Shown: positions 20,425 through 33,678, counted from the stretch's first letter. The stretch: DNA of 64,000 nt from Ardenticatenaceae bacterium (GCA_030065875.1 JASJCR010000008.1:16833-80832), one strand, 5' to 3'. Numbers and translations: made by a program. Notes: generated from the letters alone by a model not told the origin.

Positions 20425-20489
20425 CTGTCAACCTAAAAGCGTTGCAACAACTTTTCCCACCCCCAAATTATCACTATCAGGAGGTTTTT

Positions 20490-21791
20490 GTGAACCAAAA
20501 AATGGTTTGGTCACGGAGAATTTTTATAGTTATGTTGTTCGCTTTGTTTCTCGCCGGAATCAGTTCGGTAGCCAGGGCAGACAATCATACTCAACGATTT
20601 GTCGTTTCAGTTGAAAACGTGTCGGATTTTACCCATCGCTATCTCGATGTATTTAACACCCCCCGCCGGGCTGAGGCGCCAGGCCCACTGCTGCCACGCC
20701 AGACCTATCGGGTTGATTTTTACGCGGAGCCGGGTGATTATCTTTCTTTTGCCACTATGTTGGTGCAGACAAACGATTACTTTTTGGCTCCGGATGAAAT
20801 GGGGATTCCGCTCTATGACGATTGGGGTGAGCCAATTTATGGGGACGTAGGACATTATGTCAAGCTTTGGGACAACGGTACGGAGGCGGATGAGCCGTTT
20901 GGCGAAGGACCCAATCAGGCACCACGGCAGGGGGGCCCCAATACCGGCCCTGCGGATCCCAACAACCTGGTTCGGGAAGTGATGTTGGATGAGTACGTCG
21001 AGCCGTATCAGTTGATTCGGGTCAGGATCAAGCCCCGCAAAAACGGCCGTTTTACCCTGTTCCTGCGCAATATTTCCCATAAAACCGAGTTTGAATCACC
21101 GCTGGCTCCCGGTGTAGTGGTAATTCACAACACCCCCGCCCCACTATTTACTGAAGGACAGCCCGATTACGGCCAGGGTTTAGAACAAATTTCTGAAGAT
21201 GGCAACCCGGCCGTGCTTTATGAGTCGCTGCGCCCTATTAGCGGTGTCAATACCCCTCTGGCCCCTGTAGCCTGGGCCGTCCACCAAAATCCGGATGCCC
21301 TATTTACCCCGGGCACGATGGCCTCACCCGGTCTTGAAATGCTCGCTGAGGATGGTGGCCCGGCGTTGCTGGTTGAAGAAATTGCCGTGGACAATAAAGG
21401 AGCGGCCGCCATTCCCACCGGTGGCACAGAGCCGGGGCCGATTTTTGGCCCAGACGGCAGCTACACGTTCGAAATTGAGGCTGCACCTGGGGATCACCTG
21501 TCCCTGGCCAGTATGCTGGTGCAGTCAAACGACTGGTTTTACAGTCTGAGAAATCTGCCTCTGTTTGGCGGAGATGGCCAGCCGATTTCTGGTGACCAAA
21601 CGATGTATGTCCAGGTCTATGACGCCGGCACTGAGGTCGATCAAGAGCCCGGTTTTGGCTCAAAACAAGCCCCTCGTCAACGTCGGCCAGGTGCCGGCCG
21701 TGCGGAAAATGGGGTGATAGAAATGGCCGATCACCCAGCTTATAATGACGTAACCAGAGTGATTCGGGTGACCATCTCACCGGTGGAATAA
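20490..21791 (+). CDS. Secreted protein with two Spondin_N-like domains
   Basis: Signal peptide; paired segments YRVDFYAEPGDYLSFATMLVQTNDYFLAP and YTFEIEAAPGDHLSLASMLVQSNDWFYS; GTG start after AGGAGG. Confidence 0.8.
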   Translation: MNQKMVWSRRIFIVMLFALFLAGISSVARADNHTQRFVVSVENVSDFTHRYLDVFNTPRRAEAPGPLLPRQTYRVDFYAEPGDYLSFATMLVQTNDYFLAPDEMGIPLYDDWGEPIYGDVGHYVKLWDNGTEADEPFGEGPNQAPRQGGPNTGPADPNNLVREVMLDEYVEPYQLIRVRIKPRKNGRFTLFLRNISHKTEFESPLAPGVVVIHNTPAPLFTEGQPDYGQGLEQISEDGNPAVLYESLRPISGVNTPLAPVAWAVHQNPDALFTPGTMASPGLEMLAEDGGPALLVEEIAVDNKGAAAIPTGGTEPGPIFGPDGSYTFEIEAAPGDHLSLASMLVQSNDWFYSLRNLPLFGGDGQPISGDQTMYVQVYDAGTEVDQEPGFGSKQAPRQRRPGAGRAENGVIEMADHPAYNDVTRVIRVTISPVE

Positions 21792-22679: not shown

Positions 22680-23582
22680 GTGGAAATAAGTAAAGGAATG
22701 ACACAAGCCAATAACTCTCCACTACAGCAAGTGGAAATTCAAGCCTGGAGTGATGAGCTCCTCCAAAGCCTCCGGCCGCTGGCCGCGAAGAAAGAGATCA
22801 GTATCGTTAGCGAAATTGATTCTCGAATTCGCGATGTGGCCATGGAGAAAGATCAGCTTACCCATCTGGTGCGCGCCTTAATCGGGAGCGCCATTTTTAC
22901 TTCCCCCAGCGGCAGTATGGTCGGTTTAGAAGTTACGGGCGATTTACGTCACGATACGGTTCACATGACTATTTGGGATTCCGGCCCAGGAATCCAATCG
23001 TATGACGTGATGCGTTTGTTTATGGGGGAGAATCTCGACGGATTTCAGGAAGAGGTTTTTAAATCACTGCCCGAGCTGGTTTTCCAGCATGAGGGGTTAA
23101 TGACTGTGAACAACTCTTCCGGGTACGGCACGCGGGTGACTCTCTCTCTTCCCTGGCAGGAGCCACTGCTGCAAATGGGTCAGAAACGGCCGGCCAAAGG
23201 CAGCGGGCATATTCTCCTGGTTGATGATGATGAATTAAATATTTTCACCGTGGCCAGCTACCTAAAATCGATGGGATTCAAGGTATCTACCGCTTACAAC
23301 GGCCGGGAAGGGCTTGACAAACTGCTCAATAGCCGGCCGGATCTGGTGCTGATGGATGTCAATATGCCGATTATGAACGGATTAGACGCCATTCGGCATA
23401 TTCGCAGTTTAGGTGAACGGGAACTCTCTCAGGTGCCGGTCATCGCTTTTTCCGCTTACTCAATGTCCAGTGATGAACACGATTGTTTGGCGGCCGGGGC
23501 CAATGAATTTATCAGCAAACCGGTCAGCATGCGCTGGCTGCGGCAAAAAGTGCACCAATATTTGCCCTCACTGGCCAACTAA
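22680..23582 (+). CDS. HATPase domain fused to response-regulator receiver, no evident HisKA
   Basis: HATPase N/G boxes (IWDSGPGIQSYD, GYGTRVTLSLPW) then receiver HILLVDDDELNIFTVASYLKSMG...LMDVNMPIMNG. Confidence 0.85.
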   Translation: MEISKGMTQANNSPLQQVEIQAWSDELLQSLRPLAAKKEISIVSEIDSRIRDVAMEKDQLTHLVRALIGSAIFTSPSGSMVGLEVTGDLRHDTVHMTIWDSGPGIQSYDVMRLFMGENLDGFQEEVFKSLPELVFQHEGLMTVNNSSGYGTRVTLSLPWQEPLLQMGQKRPAKGSGHILLVDDDELNIFTVASYLKSMGFKVSTAYNGREGLDKLLNSRPDLVLMDVNMPIMNGLDAIRHIRSLGERELSQVPVIAFSAYSMSSDEHDCLAAGANEFISKPVSMRWLRQKVHQYLPSLAN

Positions 23583-25985: not shown

Positions 25986-26366
25986 ATGAGCAAACAGAAA
26001 AAACAATCCGATCCGTTGTCAAACGAACTTGAACGACTGCGCGATATTCTCTACGGGGAATATGCTCGTGATACGGCCTCCCAGCTGACCGTTCTCGAGG
26101 CACAGCTGCTTGAGTTTCGCCAGCAAACCCACCAATCCCTGGAGTCTCAATCAAATGCTCAGGCGAATCAGCTTGAGGTAACGCGACAGGATATAGAGGA
26201 TAAACTGACCAAATTGACGAACAACATGAATCAGGAGTTCGCCAAATTGCGTAAGGAAATGTCCGATCATATTGCGCGCATTGAAGAAGCGATGACCAAT
26301 CGGCGCGTTCTGGGTCAGCTGCTCAGCGATTTATCGACTGAATTAATGAGCGATCGCGACGCTTAA
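25986..26366 (+). CDS. Coiled-coil protein of putative GTPase module
   Basis: 126 aa predicted coiled coil (LERLRDILYGEYARDTASQLTVLEAQLLEFRQQTHQSLE). Confidence 0.75.
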   Translation: MSKQKKQSDPLSNELERLRDILYGEYARDTASQLTVLEAQLLEFRQQTHQSLESQSNAQANQLEVTRQDIEDKLTKLTNNMNQEFAKLRKEMSDHIARIEEAMTNRRVLGQLLSDLSTELMSDRDA

Positions 26367-26436
26367 CCGCTCTTTTATGGCTTTTTACCTTTGCCTGCAT
26401 ACAAGCAGGGGTAAATGATGATCTACCTCTCGGCAT

Positions 26437-27924
26437 ATGAGTGATCCTGTATTTGACCAGGAGCCCAACCGCCCACCTTCCCCGTCTGATGACGCTGCTC
26501 TTTGGGCTGATTTGCAAAGCCTGCTGCTGGCGCAGGAGCGTGCACGCGTCCATGAATTGGAAGAGCTGGTTGAATCACTGCAGGAAGAGATAGACCATTT
26601 ACAGAAGCAGTTGGGGGTTCAGAGGGAATTGGTTGTTCCCACTGTCACCAACTCATTAAGTCGGATCGCAAATGATGCGGTCGAGCAGGATCGGCGGGGA
26701 ATGGCAGGCGCCCTGGGACCGATTATCGGCGAGGCTACGCGCATTCAAATTCGGGACTCTAAAGATGAAATGGTCGAAGCCCTGTACCCCATTATTGGAG
26801 ACAGCGTGGTGCGGGCGGTGACGGAAAGATTCCGCGAATTTCAGCGGCAGATTGACGCTCGCATTCGGCCGCGTGGGGGAGTTTTGGACAACGTTGCCCT
26901 GCGGCTGCGGGGAGTTAATCCCTCAGACGTGGCCTTGCGCGATGCCCTGCCGTTTGAAATTACCCAGCTGTTTCTCATTCAGCACGACACCGGTTTTGTG
27001 CTCGAACATTTTGCCCTGGATTCCTCACAGGCGGCCGATAGCGATCTGATCAGCGGCATGTTGACCGCCATTCGCTCCTTTATGGAGGATTCATTTGACC
27101 CAACACATGAGTCCGATGAAGATCTTGATTCAATTTATCATGGGGACGCCAACGTCATTTTGCAATCCGGATCGGTGGTTTATGCGGCCGCTGTGGTCAA
27201 TGGAACAGAGCCGGCCGGGTTTCGGGCCGCTTTGCGTGGATTGCTGACCGATCTTAATCTCGAATACCGCGATGATTTTGAGGCGTATGATGGGGATCCG
27301 GAAACCCTGCCACCCCTCGAACATCATTTAGAAACGTGGGTTGAAGAAATTGAAGCCGGGTTATCGGAAAAGTCACCTTCAACCGATAGCAGCAAAAAGG
27401 TTCTGACCCGTCTGGCTGTTGCTCTTATGGTGATTTTGGTGCTCCTCTGCGGGTTTATGTCCTGGTTTGTCTGGCGGTTGATGCCCACGGCGCTCGGTCT
27501 TACCGAACCACCACCGACCGTGGTGGCTACGGTCGTGGTGACCGCCACGCCCACGGCTACGCTCCCGCCAACCGCGACCATCACCCCATCCGTTACCCCG
27601 TCACCCACCCCGACCGTCACCCCTTCAGCGACCCCAACGACCACCCCGACAGCTACGCGCACGCCAACGGTTACCCCCCAGCCAACCGGCAGTCCTTTTT
27701 CTCGAATAAACGGCCCGGTATGGAGTCGCGTGGTCCCGGATCTCGATGAGCCGCCCTGGATTGCCCTGATTGAGGGAACGGAAGTGGATGTTCTGATTGT
27801 GCAGGGAGAATGGACGCAAATTCGCTGGAATGATCCGATTGTTGGTGAAGTTGAAGGTTGGGTTCCCAATGGATGGGTTGATTTATCTCCATCCGATACA
27901 ATAGGGAGCGATGCGGACTCCTGA
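26437..27924 (+). CDS. Membrane protein: N-terminal cytosolic domain, one TM, Thr/Pro-rich stalk, C-terminal SH3b-like domain
   Basis: LGPIIGEATRIQIRDSKDEMVEALYPIIGDSVVRAV; TM LAVALMVILVLLCGFMSWFVW; TPT-rich linker; WIALIEGTEVDVLIVQGEWTQIRWNDPIVGEVEGWVPNGWVDL. Confidence 0.82.
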   Translation: MSDPVFDQEPNRPPSPSDDAALWADLQSLLLAQERARVHELEELVESLQEEIDHLQKQLGVQRELVVPTVTNSLSRIANDAVEQDRRGMAGALGPIIGEATRIQIRDSKDEMVEALYPIIGDSVVRAVTERFREFQRQIDARIRPRGGVLDNVALRLRGVNPSDVALRDALPFEITQLFLIQHDTGFVLEHFALDSSQAADSDLISGMLTAIRSFMEDSFDPTHESDEDLDSIYHGDANVILQSGSVVYAAAVVNGTEPAGFRAALRGLLTDLNLEYRDDFEAYDGDPETLPPLEHHLETWVEEIEAGLSEKSPSTDSSKKVLTRLAVALMVILVLLCGFMSWFVWRLMPTALGLTEPPPTVVATVVVTATPTATLPPTATITPSVTPSPTPTVTPSATPTTTPTATRTPTVTPQPTGSPFSRINGPVWSRVVPDLDEPPWIALIEGTEVDVLIVQGEWTQIRWNDPIVGEVEGWVPNGWVDLSPSDTIGSDADS

Positions 27925-28008
27925 GGTTTGGTCTGATATAAAAATCTTTGCAATCTTAGCTGATTTTTCTTTAATTTTAAGTAGTTTACAAAGAGAATTG
28001 TTAAAAAA

Positions 28009-28113
28009 AGCCACGGATTAACACGAATTTTCACGGATTTCTCTCTAGCTCCTGCGGAGCTCTGCGAAAATCTGCGTAATCTGCGGACACCTTCTTCAGA
28101 AAACTTTTTGTAA
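28009..28113. repeat. Dispersed intergenic repeat, copy 1 of 2
   Basis: CACGGATTAACACGAATTTTCACGGATTT...TCTGCGGACACCTTCTTCAGAAAACTTTTTGTAA. Confidence 0.8.
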
Positions 28114-28139
28114 CTTACCTAAGACATCAATTTGAATTT

Positions 28140-28652
28140 ATGAAAACGGTGCAGCGCAAAATATGCCTCTTGGGTGACTTTTCGGTTGGAAAAACCAGCC
28201 TGGTGCGGCAGTTTGTCGAGGGCCGTTTTGATGACCGTTATCTCAGCACCATTGGGGTCAAGATTTCCCGCCGTCAAATTTCCCGTCCTGATTATTTGCT
28301 CAATTTGCTGATTTGGGATTTAGCTGGAGGAGATGACTATGATGATGTCACTTCCGGGTATTTGCGCGGGGCGGCCGGCATTTTGATGGTGTGTGATTTG
28401 ACGCGTCCGCTGACCCTGCACACGCTCAGAAAATATCGCAAACAGTTAGATGAGATTAAACTTGACCCGGTGGTGGTCATCGCTGCCAATAAGGTAGACC
28501 TGGTTGCCGAGCGGGCGGTTGATGACTCATTATTGGAGGAGTTATCCCAACAAATCAACGCTCCTTATTTATTGAGCAGTGCAAAAACAGGAGAAGGTGT
28601 CGCGGCCGCCTTTGATCAAATTGCAGGACTGCTTGAGAAGAAAAAATCATGA
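28140..28652 (+). CDS. Ras/Rab-like small GTPase
   Basis: G1 GDFSVGKTS, G3-like WDLAGGDDY, G4 ANKVDL, G5 SSAKTG. Confidence 0.92.
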   Translation: MKTVQRKICLLGDFSVGKTSLVRQFVEGRFDDRYLSTIGVKISRRQISRPDYLLNLLIWDLAGGDDYDDVTSGYLRGAAGILMVCDLTRPLTLHTLRKYRKQLDEIKLDPVVVIAANKVDLVAERAVDDSLLEELSQQINAPYLLSSAKTGEGVAAAFDQIAGLLEKKKS

Positions 28653-28653
28653 T

Positions 28654-29853
28654 ATGAAAGATTCCAAGCTGCCTCCCAATCTAATTGAGAAACGGGTTGT
28701 TGAACATCTGGGCACCCGTTTTGCTTATGCCCTCCTAGACCCTCAGTTCAAAATAAAATCAACCAGCTTTAACTTCAACGAACTTGCTGCCCCTGAAGGG
28801 GAAGGTTTGCAGGGAATGCCGTTAGCGGATCTTTTTCCCGAATTAATCGGGCTTGAAGAAAGTATGGGCGAATTATTAAGCGGTGATTTGGAAGCGTTAA
28901 ATTTGGACGCGGTGAATCGGCTTGTTCAGAACGGCAGTGAAGGGGAAGAGGTCGTTCAATATTTTAATTTCACTCTCTTTCCTGCGGATCGACGACGGCC
29001 GGGAGAGGGGCTGATTTTTTTAATTGAAGAGGTATCGGATCAAGCCAATCTCCGGCAAGATCTGGTGCAGGAACGCAATCAGCTGCGATTAACCCAGGGG
29101 GAGCTGGCCCGGGCAAACCGGGAGCTGCAGCGTCTCGACCAAATTAAAACCCTCTTTCTATCGATGGCGGCCCACGATATGCGCACTCCATTGAGCGTGA
29201 TTTCCGGCTATATTGAATTGATCCAGGATATGATTCGGGATGACGAGCCACAAGATAAATCTCTGATTAACAGAGATCTGACCATTATGCAGGATCAGGT
29301 TCACTGGTTAAATCGCCTGATTTTGAACGTTCTGGATTTAAATTTAATCGAAAACGAACTGCTGGTTGTTGACCGGCAGCCGTTTGACATGCGTCTGGCG
29401 GTGGAGCAGGTTGCCCGTTCGACGCAAAATATGTTCAAAAACGCCCGGCAGCATCTATCCTATCACGTTCCAACAGCCGACGTTTTTGTTTTAGCGGAGT
29501 CGGATCGCATCAAGCAGGTGCTGTTTAATTTGGTGGGCAACAGCTTTAAATTTATATCGAGAGGCGGCCGGGTCCACATCGACCTGCGTAGTGACATTGA
29601 TCGTCAGAAAGCGATTTTGGCGATCGAAGATGATGGACCAGGCATCGATAAGGCATATCAAAAGCACCTGTTTAAGCTGCATTATCGCACGCCCGAATCA
29701 AATGAGGTTCAGGGAACCGGTCTTGGTTTGTACATCGTAAAAAAACTGGTTGATCAGCATGAGGGCACCATTTGGGTGGAAAGCGAGGTAGGGCAGGGCA
29801 CGCGCTTTGTCATTGAACTGCCATTATTAAGTAATTTGCAAAAAGTCTCATAA
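28654..29853 (+). CDS. Sensor histidine kinase, PAS-like N-terminus
   Basis: HisKA SMAAHDMRTPLSVISGYIELIQDM, HATPase IEDDGPGIDKAY/GTGLGLYIVKKLVDQH; start one nt after GTPase stop. Confidence 0.92.
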   Translation: MKDSKLPPNLIEKRVVEHLGTRFAYALLDPQFKIKSTSFNFNELAAPEGEGLQGMPLADLFPELIGLEESMGELLSGDLEALNLDAVNRLVQNGSEGEEVVQYFNFTLFPADRRRPGEGLIFLIEEVSDQANLRQDLVQERNQLRLTQGELARANRELQRLDQIKTLFLSMAAHDMRTPLSVISGYIELIQDMIRDDEPQDKSLINRDLTIMQDQVHWLNRLILNVLDLNLIENELLVVDRQPFDMRLAVEQVARSTQNMFKNARQHLSYHVPTADVFVLAESDRIKQVLFNLVGNSFKFISRGGRVHIDLRSDIDRQKAILAIEDDGPGIDKAYQKHLFKLHYRTPESNEVQGTGLGLYIVKKLVDQHEGTIWVESEVGQGTRFVIELPLLSNLQKVS

Positions 29854-29862
29854 TTAATATTA

Positions 29863-29976
29863 TCCGCAGATTACACAGATTTTCGCAGATTACAGAGAAA
29901 AATCTGTGGCCATCTGCGAACCTCTGGTTCTGCGCTCCGCGCTCTGCGGACACCTTCTTCAGAAAAATTTTTGTAA
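29863..29976. repeat. Dispersed intergenic repeat, copy 2 of 2
   Basis: CCGCAGATTACACAGATTTTCGCAGATT...CTCTGCGGACACCTTCTTCAGAAAAATTTTTGTAA. Confidence 0.8.
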
Positions 29977-30016
29977 ACGACTTAATCAATCAAACAACCG
30001 CATAAGGAAGTTGGAA

Positions 30017-31343: not shown

Positions 31344-33017
31344 ATGAATACAAAATTTTACGACATGCGAAATTTGAAAGGGGATTTAACCGGTGGACTG
31401 GTTGCCGGTGTCGTGGCCTTGCCCCTGGCGCTGGCTTTTGGTGTTCAATCGGGTCTGGGTGCCATTTATGGCTTGTACGGAGCGATCATGCTCGGTATAT
31501 TGGCGGCGGTTTTTGGCGGGACCGCAACGCAGGCTAGCGGCCCTACCGGTCCGATGACCGTGGTTTCGGCCTCGTTGGTTGCTTCCGCGATCGCTTTGAC
31601 GGGCAGTCTCGAAAACGCCTGGGGAATTATCGTCATCACTTTTTTGTTGGGTGGCGCGTTCCAGATTGTTTTTGGATTTCTCAACATCGCCCGCTATATT
31701 AAATTTTTCCCTTATCCGGTTATATCCGGCTTTATGAGCGGCGTTGGCCTGATTATTGTCCTGCTCCAGATCTATCCTTTTATGGGAGTTACTTCTCCCT
31801 CCAGCACGCTGGGGGTATTGTTAGAAATCCCTCGACTGATAGAGAATCTGAACTGGTCAGCTCTCGGTCTCGGTCTACTAACGGTGGCCATTTACTATTT
31901 ATTCCCCCGGTTGACCAAGGCGATTCCCAGTGCGTTGGTGGCCCTGATTGTGGCTTCGGTCGTAGGCTACATCCTGCAGCTTGATGCACCGCTTATCGGG
32001 GATATTCCTTCCGGTTTACCCGCTATTCAGCTGGGCACCATTTTAACAATTGACTCATCGGCCTACCTGCTTATTCTCGAATACGCCGTCGTTCTGGCCG
32101 TGCTTGGCTCGATCGATTCCCTTTTGACCTCGGTCATTGCCGACAACATCACCAAAACAAAGCACAACAGCAATCGAGAGTTAATTGGTCAGGGTATCGG
32201 CAACATGGCGGCCGCCGTATTTGGCGGTATTCCTGGTGCCGGAGCAACAAAGGGCACGGTTGTTAACATCAATTCAGGCGGTAGGACTCGCCTATCCGGC
32301 ACCATACACGGCTTGTTTTTGCTGGCTGTTCTATTAGGTCTGGGTCAGCTTGCTGCGTTTATTCCCCTGGCCGTTCTGGCCGGCATTTTGATTCCGATCG
32401 GCTTCAATATTATCGACATGAGGGGCCTCAGACATCTGTTTGATGTACCCCGTGCGGATGCGGTTGTCTTAGTCGTCGTCTTCGCGGTCACAACCTTTGG
32501 CAGCCTGATTAATGCTGTCGCGTTGGGAATCATCCTGGCGTCGATTTTATTTATGAAGCGCTCGAGCGATCTGGCCGAAGAAGGCACCAATGTGGCTACC
32601 CTGGCGGGAGTCGATGGCGAGAAGCTGTGGGATGATGAGATTGCCCACTATGATGATTTCAAAGACACAGTCTATGTCAAACATCTGTATGGTCCCCTCT
32701 TCTTTGGCTTCACTTCACATTTCCAGGAGCTCGTTAAAGATTTGGATGAGAACATCAGCGCGCTCATTATTCGCATGGACAGGGTTCCCCATATCGATCA
32801 AACCGGCCTTTATGCCATGGAGGAAACGGCGTTCGAGCTTGAACAAAAGGGGGTTCCCGTCATCTTAACCGGCCTGCAGTCACAGCCGGCCGACATGCTC
32901 GAAAGAATCGACATCATTCCCGATTTGATTCCGCGGGAACAGCTGTTTGATACTTTTGAGGACAGTATCGACTGGCTCCAGCTGCAGCTTCCTGAAAGAA
33001 GCAAAGTTGCCGTTTGA
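31344..33017 (+). CDS. SulP-family anion transporter with STAS domain
   Basis: GDLTGGLVAGVVALPLALAFGVQSG; C-terminal STAS-like IRMDRVPHIDQTGLYAMEET. Confidence 0.95.
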   Translation: MNTKFYDMRNLKGDLTGGLVAGVVALPLALAFGVQSGLGAIYGLYGAIMLGILAAVFGGTATQASGPTGPMTVVSASLVASAIALTGSLENAWGIIVITFLLGGAFQIVFGFLNIARYIKFFPYPVISGFMSGVGLIIVLLQIYPFMGVTSPSSTLGVLLEIPRLIENLNWSALGLGLLTVAIYYLFPRLTKAIPSALVALIVASVVGYILQLDAPLIGDIPSGLPAIQLGTILTIDSSAYLLILEYAVVLAVLGSIDSLLTSVIADNITKTKHNSNRELIGQGIGNMAAAVFGGIPGAGATKGTVVNINSGGRTRLSGTIHGLFLLAVLLGLGQLAAFIPLAVLAGILIPIGFNIIDMRGLRHLFDVPRADAVVLVVVFAVTTFGSLINAVALGIILASILFMKRSSDLAEEGTNVATLAGVDGEKLWDDEIAHYDDFKDTVYVKHLYGPLFFGFTSHFQELVKDLDENISALIIRMDRVPHIDQTGLYAMEETAFELEQKGVPVILTGLQSQPADMLERIDIIPDLIPREQLFDTFEDSIDWLQLQLPERSKVAV

Positions 33018-33078
33018 TTTTTTAAACAACCGGTGGAATACCGTTTACAACGACACTCAATAAAAAAAGGAGATTGGT

Positions 33079-33678
33079 ATGATTACACAAACTGAGCAAT
33101 CTTTGTCAACGATGACCCCTGAGAAGGCGTTAAACCTCTTAAAAGAAGGAAACAACCGATTTGTCGACGGGCAAAATGACGACCGGAATTTACTAAAGCA
33201 GGTGGAAACCACGAGCGGCGGCCAATATCCGTTTGCCGTCATCCTTGGTTGTGTTGATTCACGCGTGCCGCATGAGCTGATTTTTGACCTGGGGATTGGC
33301 GATGTTTTTAGCGTGCGGATCGCCGGCAACCACATCAACGAGGATATTTTGGGCAGCATGGAGTTTGCCTGCCATGTGGTTGGTTCCAAACATATATTGG
33401 TATTGGGTCATACCAGCTGCGGCGCGATTCAGGGCGCGGCCGGAAAGGTCGAGCTGGGTCATTTAACCCAGCTGCTCGACAAGCTTCAGCCGGCCGTCAC
33501 GGCTGCTGGAAGCGAGGCTACGGTCGATCAAATCGCGGCCGCCAACGTGAAATTGACGGTGGAAGAGATCAAAGCTCAGAGCCCGACCTTAAGGGCGCTG
33601 GTAGAAAGTGGTGATCTTTCCATCTCTGGTGCGATGTATGATGTTTCCAGCGGACAGGTAACGTTTGACATCGCCTAA
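33079..33678 (+). CDS. Beta-class carbonic anhydrase
   Basis: VILGCVDSRVPHELIFDLGIGDVFSVRIAGN; LVLGHTSCGAIQGA. Confidence 0.95.
   Translation: MITQTEQSLSTMTPEKALNLLKEGNNRFVDGQNDDRNLLKQVETTSGGQYPFAVILGCVDSRVPHELIFDLGIGDVFSVRIAGNHINEDILGSMEFACHVVGSKHILVLGHTSCGAIQGAAGKVELGHLTQLLDKLQPAVTAAGSEATVDQIAAANVKLTVEEIKAQSPTLRALVESGDLSISGAMYDVSSGQVTFDIA

Follow-up and report, generated by a model that had tools for sequence, protein, structure and literature searches.

A Conserved Group 1 Rup GTPase Module of Chloroflexota Whose Membrane Protein Carries a Predicted Longin-Like Domain

Introduction

Group 1 Rup GTPases were defined in 2014, along with a system predicted from their gene neighborhoods, in taxa that include Chloroflexi and Cyanobacteria; no prokaryotic proteins are said to be closer to Rab, Ras, Rho, and Ran, and no function was reported (Wuichet and Sogaard-Andersen, PMC4316618). 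They lack the glutamine of the G3 motif, and their neighborhoods encode a coiled-coil protein, a protein in which an unknown conserved domain is joined to a transmembrane helix and often an OmpA domain, and an output protein, typically a diguanylate cyclase/phosphodiesterase fusion or a histidine kinase, whose N-terminal part has an invariant glutamine (PMC4316618). The same authors suggested that this glutamine is catalytic, flagging it because the G3 glutamine is missing; longins go unmentioned in their paper (PMC4316618). Eukaryotic longins have been derived from MglB roadblock domains (PMC3521125). No experimental work on Group 1 Rup systems appears in the literature that we searched, which leaves out most subscription papers. 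Here, we describe a four-gene module of this kind in a 64,000-nucleotide stretch of an Ardenticatenaceae bacterium genome (GCA_030065875.1 JASJCR010000008.1:16833-80832; hereafter the window, with positions counted from its first letter). The genes encode, in order, a coiled-coil protein, a membrane protein with a putative wall-binding tip, a Rab-like GTPase, and a histidine kinase. An earlier interpretation of the window made from the DNA alone (the sequence-only reading) knew of no pathway of this composition, which the Group 1 Rup prediction (PMC4316618) already contains.

Results

The composition of the module is that already described as Group 1 Rup, and the window module has every feature that we tested. 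Its GTPase, at 170 amino acids within the 150–240 range of the group, has Ras/Rab-type motifs (G1 GDFSVGKT, G3 DLAGG with its aspartate, G4 NKVD, and G5 SAKT), and a sequence search of the PDB placed Rab1 first (E 1.4e-25) among 798 distinct sequences matched. The G3 glutamine is missing from 75 of 75 readable GTPases (77 in total), a point that the sequence-only reading overlooked while naming the four motifs correctly. A coiled-coil gene lies nearby in 47 of 49 informative loci, that is, loci with 2.5 kb of flank on either side, co-presence being counted within 5 kb. The conserved domain is joined to a transmembrane helix and a peptidoglycan-binding C-terminus (SH3b in Chloroflexota, OmpA in Nostoc and Mesorhizobium), and the output proteins have an invariant N-terminal glutamine in 84 of 84 sequences, matched to PMC4316618 by its description and not by its logo. 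There is no coupling to an MglB gene; roadblock genes are confined to contigs C24 and C49 and absent from C140.

The four genes form a real, conserved unit, which is a Chloroflexota variant of the predicted system. Among the informative loci, a GTPase is present in 45, a kinase or other PAS-Gln gene (see below) in 47, and all four families in 41, the coiled-coil protein being counted by profile; within the family of the window, a coiled-coil homolog is found at the corresponding position in 15 of 19 loci, with a conserved C-terminal motif around R.xLGxLLxxLG. A GTPase search of 40 related genomes followed by gene calling recovered the order coiled-coil protein, membrane protein, GTPase, kinase in most of this family. 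In these genomes the membrane protein and a close GTPase match occur together in 17, the membrane protein alone in one, the GTPase alone in none, and neither in 22, so that presence agrees in 39 of 40; the contig of the single discordant genome ends there. Fisher's test gives p of about 1e-10, computed with 23 instead of 22 genomes in the "neither" class. When GTDB genomes were scanned with a profile built on the membrane protein's inner domain, 188 candidates came back; of the best 80, every one assigned to a named lineage belongs to Chloroflexota, with Anaerolineae, Chloroflexus, Oscillochloris, Thermoflexus, and Promineifilum among them. The domain occurs in 21 of 400 genomes sampled across the phylum, so the system is patchy. 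Some genomes have more distant GTPases, at 32–40% identity, but no longin gene, and gene order varies, with the GTPase leading in Chloroflexus and Thermoflexus. The same operon order recurs in Nostoc, Rhizobium, and Mesorhizobium, for three phyla overall. The sequence-only reading had staked its case in part on the co-occurrence of the four families in related genomes, and this holds across Chloroflexota and beyond. A Mesorhizobium plasmid operon (L142 4789-10118) encodes a coiled-coil protein, a longin-OmpA protein, a "Rab family GTPase," and an adenylate/guanylate cyclase, and represents a Group 1 Rup system whose output is a cyclase.

The inner domain of the membrane protein is predicted to be longin-like by fold. 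Given that it has no Pfam match and that a profile search of the PDB returned one unrelated hit only, we turned to structure comparison. The domain was modeled twice by AlphaFold2, from alignments of 18 and 78 sequences, and each model was searched against the PDB with Foldseek. Both models show the longin-type order b-b-a-b-b-b-a-a by DSSP, and for both the top 50 of 50 hits are longin- or roadblock-fold proteins, with a best E of 8e-4 and template modeling (TM) scores of 0.72 for Sec22b and 0.69 for a TRAPP subunit; the others include zeta-COP, sigma-adaptins, Mon1-Ccz1, VAMP7, LAMTOR, and bacterial roadblock proteins, all of which we take to belong to the longin/roadblock fold from general knowledge of these proteins. 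Confidence in the models themselves is moderate (predicted TM scores of 0.45 and 0.66), with Foldseek E values near 1e-3. The sequence-only reading overlooked this domain but had proposed a structure prediction of it together with the GTPase; the prediction was run on the inner domain alone. Relative to the 2014 description, and within the literature searched, one new element is that the unknown domain has a predicted longin fold.

The rest of the membrane protein is consistent with a receptor that reaches the cell wall. The single transmembrane helix is flanked by four lysine or arginine residues on its N side and none on its C side, and the Pro/Thr-rich stalk lies on the C side, so the N-terminal part is predicted to be cytosolic and the tip external. 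Hydropathy, composition, and the SH3_3 matches of orthologs thus bear out the earlier picture of one helix, a TPT-rich stalk, and an SH3b-like tip. SH3_3 was matched in 10 of 10 orthologs scanned, with E down to 7e-10 and five matches exceeding the curated cut-off; the tip of the window protein itself falls below Pfam detection, and neither the coiled-coil nor the membrane protein has a Pfam family of its own. In the Nostoc and Mesorhizobium copies scanned, the same inner domain bears an OmpA tip; two such homologs are plasmid-borne, one in Nostoc and one in Mesorhizobium, and both lie in the same four-gene order, which a Rhizobium plasmid also shows. Chloroflexota are mostly regarded as monoderm, and the cyanobacterial (Nostoc) and Mesorhizobium groups as diderm; the type of wall-binding tip may follow the type of envelope.

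In Pfam searches, HisKA and HATPase_c of the kinase are above cut-off and PAS_4 is a weak match below it, in keeping with the PAS-like/HisKA kinase that had been read from the sequence. Pfam finds no sensor or membrane domain in the 399 residues, on which no hydropathy scan was made. The N-terminal 160 residues, which contain a PAS-like domain plus a helix (the PAS-Gln domain), recur on HisKA kinases, a HisKA_3 kinase, class III nucleotidyl cyclases, and a GAF-HD-GYP protein; hybrid kinases with this domain occur in Chloroflexus, where the kinase has its own receiver, and in Nostoc, and the Mesorhizobium output is a cyclase. Across these differing outputs, the column of Gln139 is the sole fully invariant one. 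By eye, the glutamine also appears conserved in Nostoc (FQGANE) and Mesorhizobium (QQKAYE), with a change in the arginine or asparagine next to it. The segment sits between the PAS-like and the output domain, as S-helices do, with the signature QxRNE to compare with the ERT of S-helices. The sequence-only reading overlooked these exchangeable outputs behind one PAS-Gln domain; class III cyclase and GAF-HD-GYP outputs, and the split loci described below, are additions to the 2014 picture. Some loci have two PAS-Gln output genes in tandem (L063 10909-11937, L056 5367-6440, and L064 5961-7049); given that L063 has a kinase followed by a class III cyclase, one GTPase may feed two outputs.

Several loci are split. 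Four loci lack the GTPase (L083, L091, L102, and L103). For L083, L091, and L103 it is present elsewhere in the genome, adjoining a PAS-Gln cyclase gene, which rules out its loss there; the L102 genome yielded no GTPase match. Promineifilum-like genomes have the longin protein together with a short kinase that lacks PAS-Gln, and the GTPase elsewhere, convergent with the gene of a PAS-Gln class III cyclase. Split Rup systems were recorded at L136-L139, L134, and L135, with the GTPase gene convergent with that of a PAS-Gln class III cyclase at one locus and the longin protein and a PAS-less kinase at the other. Since the GTPase stays with the PAS-Gln domain when the system splits, gene order suggests that this domain faces the GTPase, and it is probably the part that the GTPase touches.

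The coordinates of the module are given in table 1. Open reading frame and Pfam checks agree with the positions, order, strand, and domains first assigned to the four genes, including a kinase start 1 nt past the TGA of the GTPase gene, and the module is single-copy in this genome. The intergenic repeat of about 110 nt (28010-28125) flanks the GTPase-kinase pair, with a partial, related copy after the kinase gene (29863-29993).

Table 1. Features of the Group 1 Rup module in the window
Feature	Position	Strand	Details
Coiled-coil cytoplasmic protein	25986..26366	+	126 aa; first gene of the module
Longin-like/transmembrane/P-T-rich stalk/SH3b membrane protein	26437..27924	+	495 aa; orthologs adjoin the GTPase in nearly all loci
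Longin-like core domain of membrane protein (predicted)	26956..27306	+	aa 174-290; b-b-a-b-b-b-a then second helix; no Pfam family
Single transmembrane helix	27409..27483	+	about aa 325-349; Kyte-Doolittle maximum 2.6, sole segment >1.6
External Thr/Pro-rich stalk	27502..27705	+	aa 356-423; 24 T and 17 P in 68 residues
SH3b-like tip	27706..27894	+	aligned orthologs match Pfam SH3_3
Dispersed intergenic repeat copy between membrane-protein and GTPase genes	28010..28125	.	at least 40 copies in genome
Group 1 Rup (Rab-like) small GTPase	28140..28652	+	170 aa; Pfam Ras E 9.5e-36
G3 motif DLAGG	28317..28331	+	Gly (aa 64) in place of the Ras/Rab catalytic Gln
PAS-Gln histidine kinase	28654..29853	+	399 aa; HisKA and HATPase_c; orthologs in all but few loci
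PAS-like plus helix (PAS-Gln) domain of kinase	28696..29142	+	profile found in 87 proteins with several output kinds
Codon of invariant Gln139 (QERNQLRL), helix after PAS-like domain	29068..29070	+	84/84 sequences
HisKA phosphoacceptor domain (AAHDMRTP)	29146..29355	+	Pfam PF00512 E 2.2e-12
HATPase_c catalytic domain	29500..29826	+	Pfam PF02518 E 6.5e-29

Elsewhere in the window, 22680-23582 encodes a 300-residue protein with HATPase_c and receiver domains and no Pfam HisKA match, and 20442-21791 a secreted-looking protein with a Spondin_N domain, apparently of two repeats. At 31344-33678, a gene for a SulP-like transporter precedes a carbonic-anhydrase-like gene, both recognized by eye from the translation. 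At locus L042 (18641-19999), a leucine-rich-repeat protein near a Rup module weakly matches the GTPase profile and is possibly Roc/COR-like.

Discussion

Our best model, which we favor with some confidence, is that the SH3b/longin protein reads the state of the wall and sets the state or place of the GTPase, which in turn gates the kinase through the PAS-Gln domain. The SH3b tip on its external stalk would probably touch peptidoglycan or another wall polymer, and the cytosolic longin-like domain, by analogy with other longin/roadblock-fold proteins, would bind the Rab-like GTPase and set its nucleotide state or location. The GTPase, without a catalytic glutamine of its own, would act on the PAS-Gln domain of the output, here an apparently soluble histidine kinase, whose invariant glutamine may complete GTP hydrolysis or belong to a helix that relays the signal to the kinase. 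The coiled-coil protein would probably scaffold the complex beneath the membrane. The model starts from the conservation of the genes, their domain content, the missing G3 glutamine, the invariant PAS-Gln residue, and the predicted fold and topology; the interactions, the wall signal, and the direction from receptor to GTPase to kinase we infer. A wall sensor relayed through a GTPase to a kinase was also the proposal of the sequence-only reading. The idea is a reasonable one and agrees with PMC4316618; its wall-facing input and kinase output fit the domains, and the relay between them is putative.

Several points weigh against this model. The step from receptor to GTPase is drawn by analogy; the longin assignment, with E values of about 1e-3 and predicted TM scores of 0.45 and 0.66, is one of fold and leaves homology unproven; and wall contact is not universal, given that some members (L099, L124, and L126) are without stalk and tip. 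Furthermore, 215 nt that include the dispersed repeat separate the membrane-protein gene from the GTPase gene in this genome, so a single transcript is not assured.

That the genes are unlinked and neighbors by chance might be read from the genes flanking the four, which differ between genera; it is virtually inconceivable, and we rule it out, because 45 of 49 informative loci have the GTPase close to the longin gene, where next to none would be expected, and the order is the same in three phyla. A true complex might also run in reverse, with the kinase controlling the GTPase as the output, as the 2014 authors argued for the actinobacterial conservons (PMC4316618), and no response-regulator gene is recognized within the module itself. 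We regard this direction as quite unlikely: the PAS-Gln domain is kept constant beside widely varying outputs (HisKA kinase, hybrid kinase, class III cyclase, GAF-HD-GYP), as expected of a domain on which an effector docks; cyclases and HD-GYP enzymes, which synthesize or degrade second messengers, suit an output role; and the Chloroflexus hybrid kinase has its own receiver.

It is unlikely, too, that the longin protein and the GTPase together serve as a spatial marker or as a polarity system beneath the wall, like MglA/MglB, with the kinase a separate reader and no wall signal passing through the GTPase. In Myxococcus, cell polarity is set by Ras-like GTPases and their roadblock partners (PMC2907295), and wall-binding tips and a coiled-coil partner would suit a positional anchor; however, a kinase or other PAS-Gln output gene accompanies the system in 47 of 49 informative loci. 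A fourth possibility competes with one step of our model only, namely that the invariant glutamine is part of an S-helix-like coiled coil and that the GTPase-activating protein is the longin protein or another protein. We take it seriously, at somewhat less than even chances, because the segment is exactly where S-helices sit, between PAS and kinase, cyclase, or HD-GYP domains (PMC1592074), and the Q-x-R-N-E pattern recalls their ERT signature. Yet the glutamine is kept in 84 of 84 sequences while the adjoining arginine and asparagine vary, and it was flagged in PMC4316618 because the G3 glutamine is missing.

The wall-sensing model with a longin-like partner bearing a wall-binding tip would give Group 1 Rup a concrete, testable scheme, and it would bear on the origin of Rab-longin regulation. 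A longin-like domain already paired with bacterial Rab-like GTPases would in particular bear on the derivation of longins from MglB roadblock domains (PMC3521125). We hold only tentatively, as a rather doubtful proposition, that eukaryotic longins are true relatives of the longin domain in the SH3b/OmpA protein, and that this domain, as part of a wall-sensing receptor, regulates the bacterial GTPases nearest to Rab; if so, the Rab-longin pairing, one of the foundations of membrane traffic in eukaryotes, also occurs in bacteria.

Comparison with Known Systems

The window module shares with Group 1 Rup systems the G motifs, the missing G3 glutamine, the coiled-coil gene, the protein with a conserved domain, transmembrane helix, and wall-binding part, and the invariant glutamine of the output, and differs in that its type has an SH3b tip whereas the 2014 description has OmpA. 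With the conservons (CvnA-D) it shares a histidine kinase, a Ras-like GTPase, and a partner of the longin/roadblock superfamily (here by predicted fold) in one operon. Conservons, however, have an MglA-type GTPase, an MglB-type roadblock partner, and sensing in the membrane kinase CvnA, whereas the window kinase appears soluble and the longin-like protein would be the membrane receptor; with no MglB-type roadblock gene near the module, membership in the conservons was rejected. Membership in MglA/MglB was likewise rejected, as roadblock genes of the MglB type are only on other contigs: a bacterial Ras-like GTPase and a partner of related fold are shared with these systems, but the window GTPase is Rab/Ras-like with a G3 aspartate. 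Finally, the eukaryotic Rab-longin pairs Mon1-Ccz1/Ypt7 and TRAPP/Ypt1, which are among the top Foldseek hits, likewise have a Rab-like GTPase beside a longin-fold protein; the likeness is at the level of fold, and the window module differs in having a putative bacterial receptor with a wall-binding tip and a kinase output.

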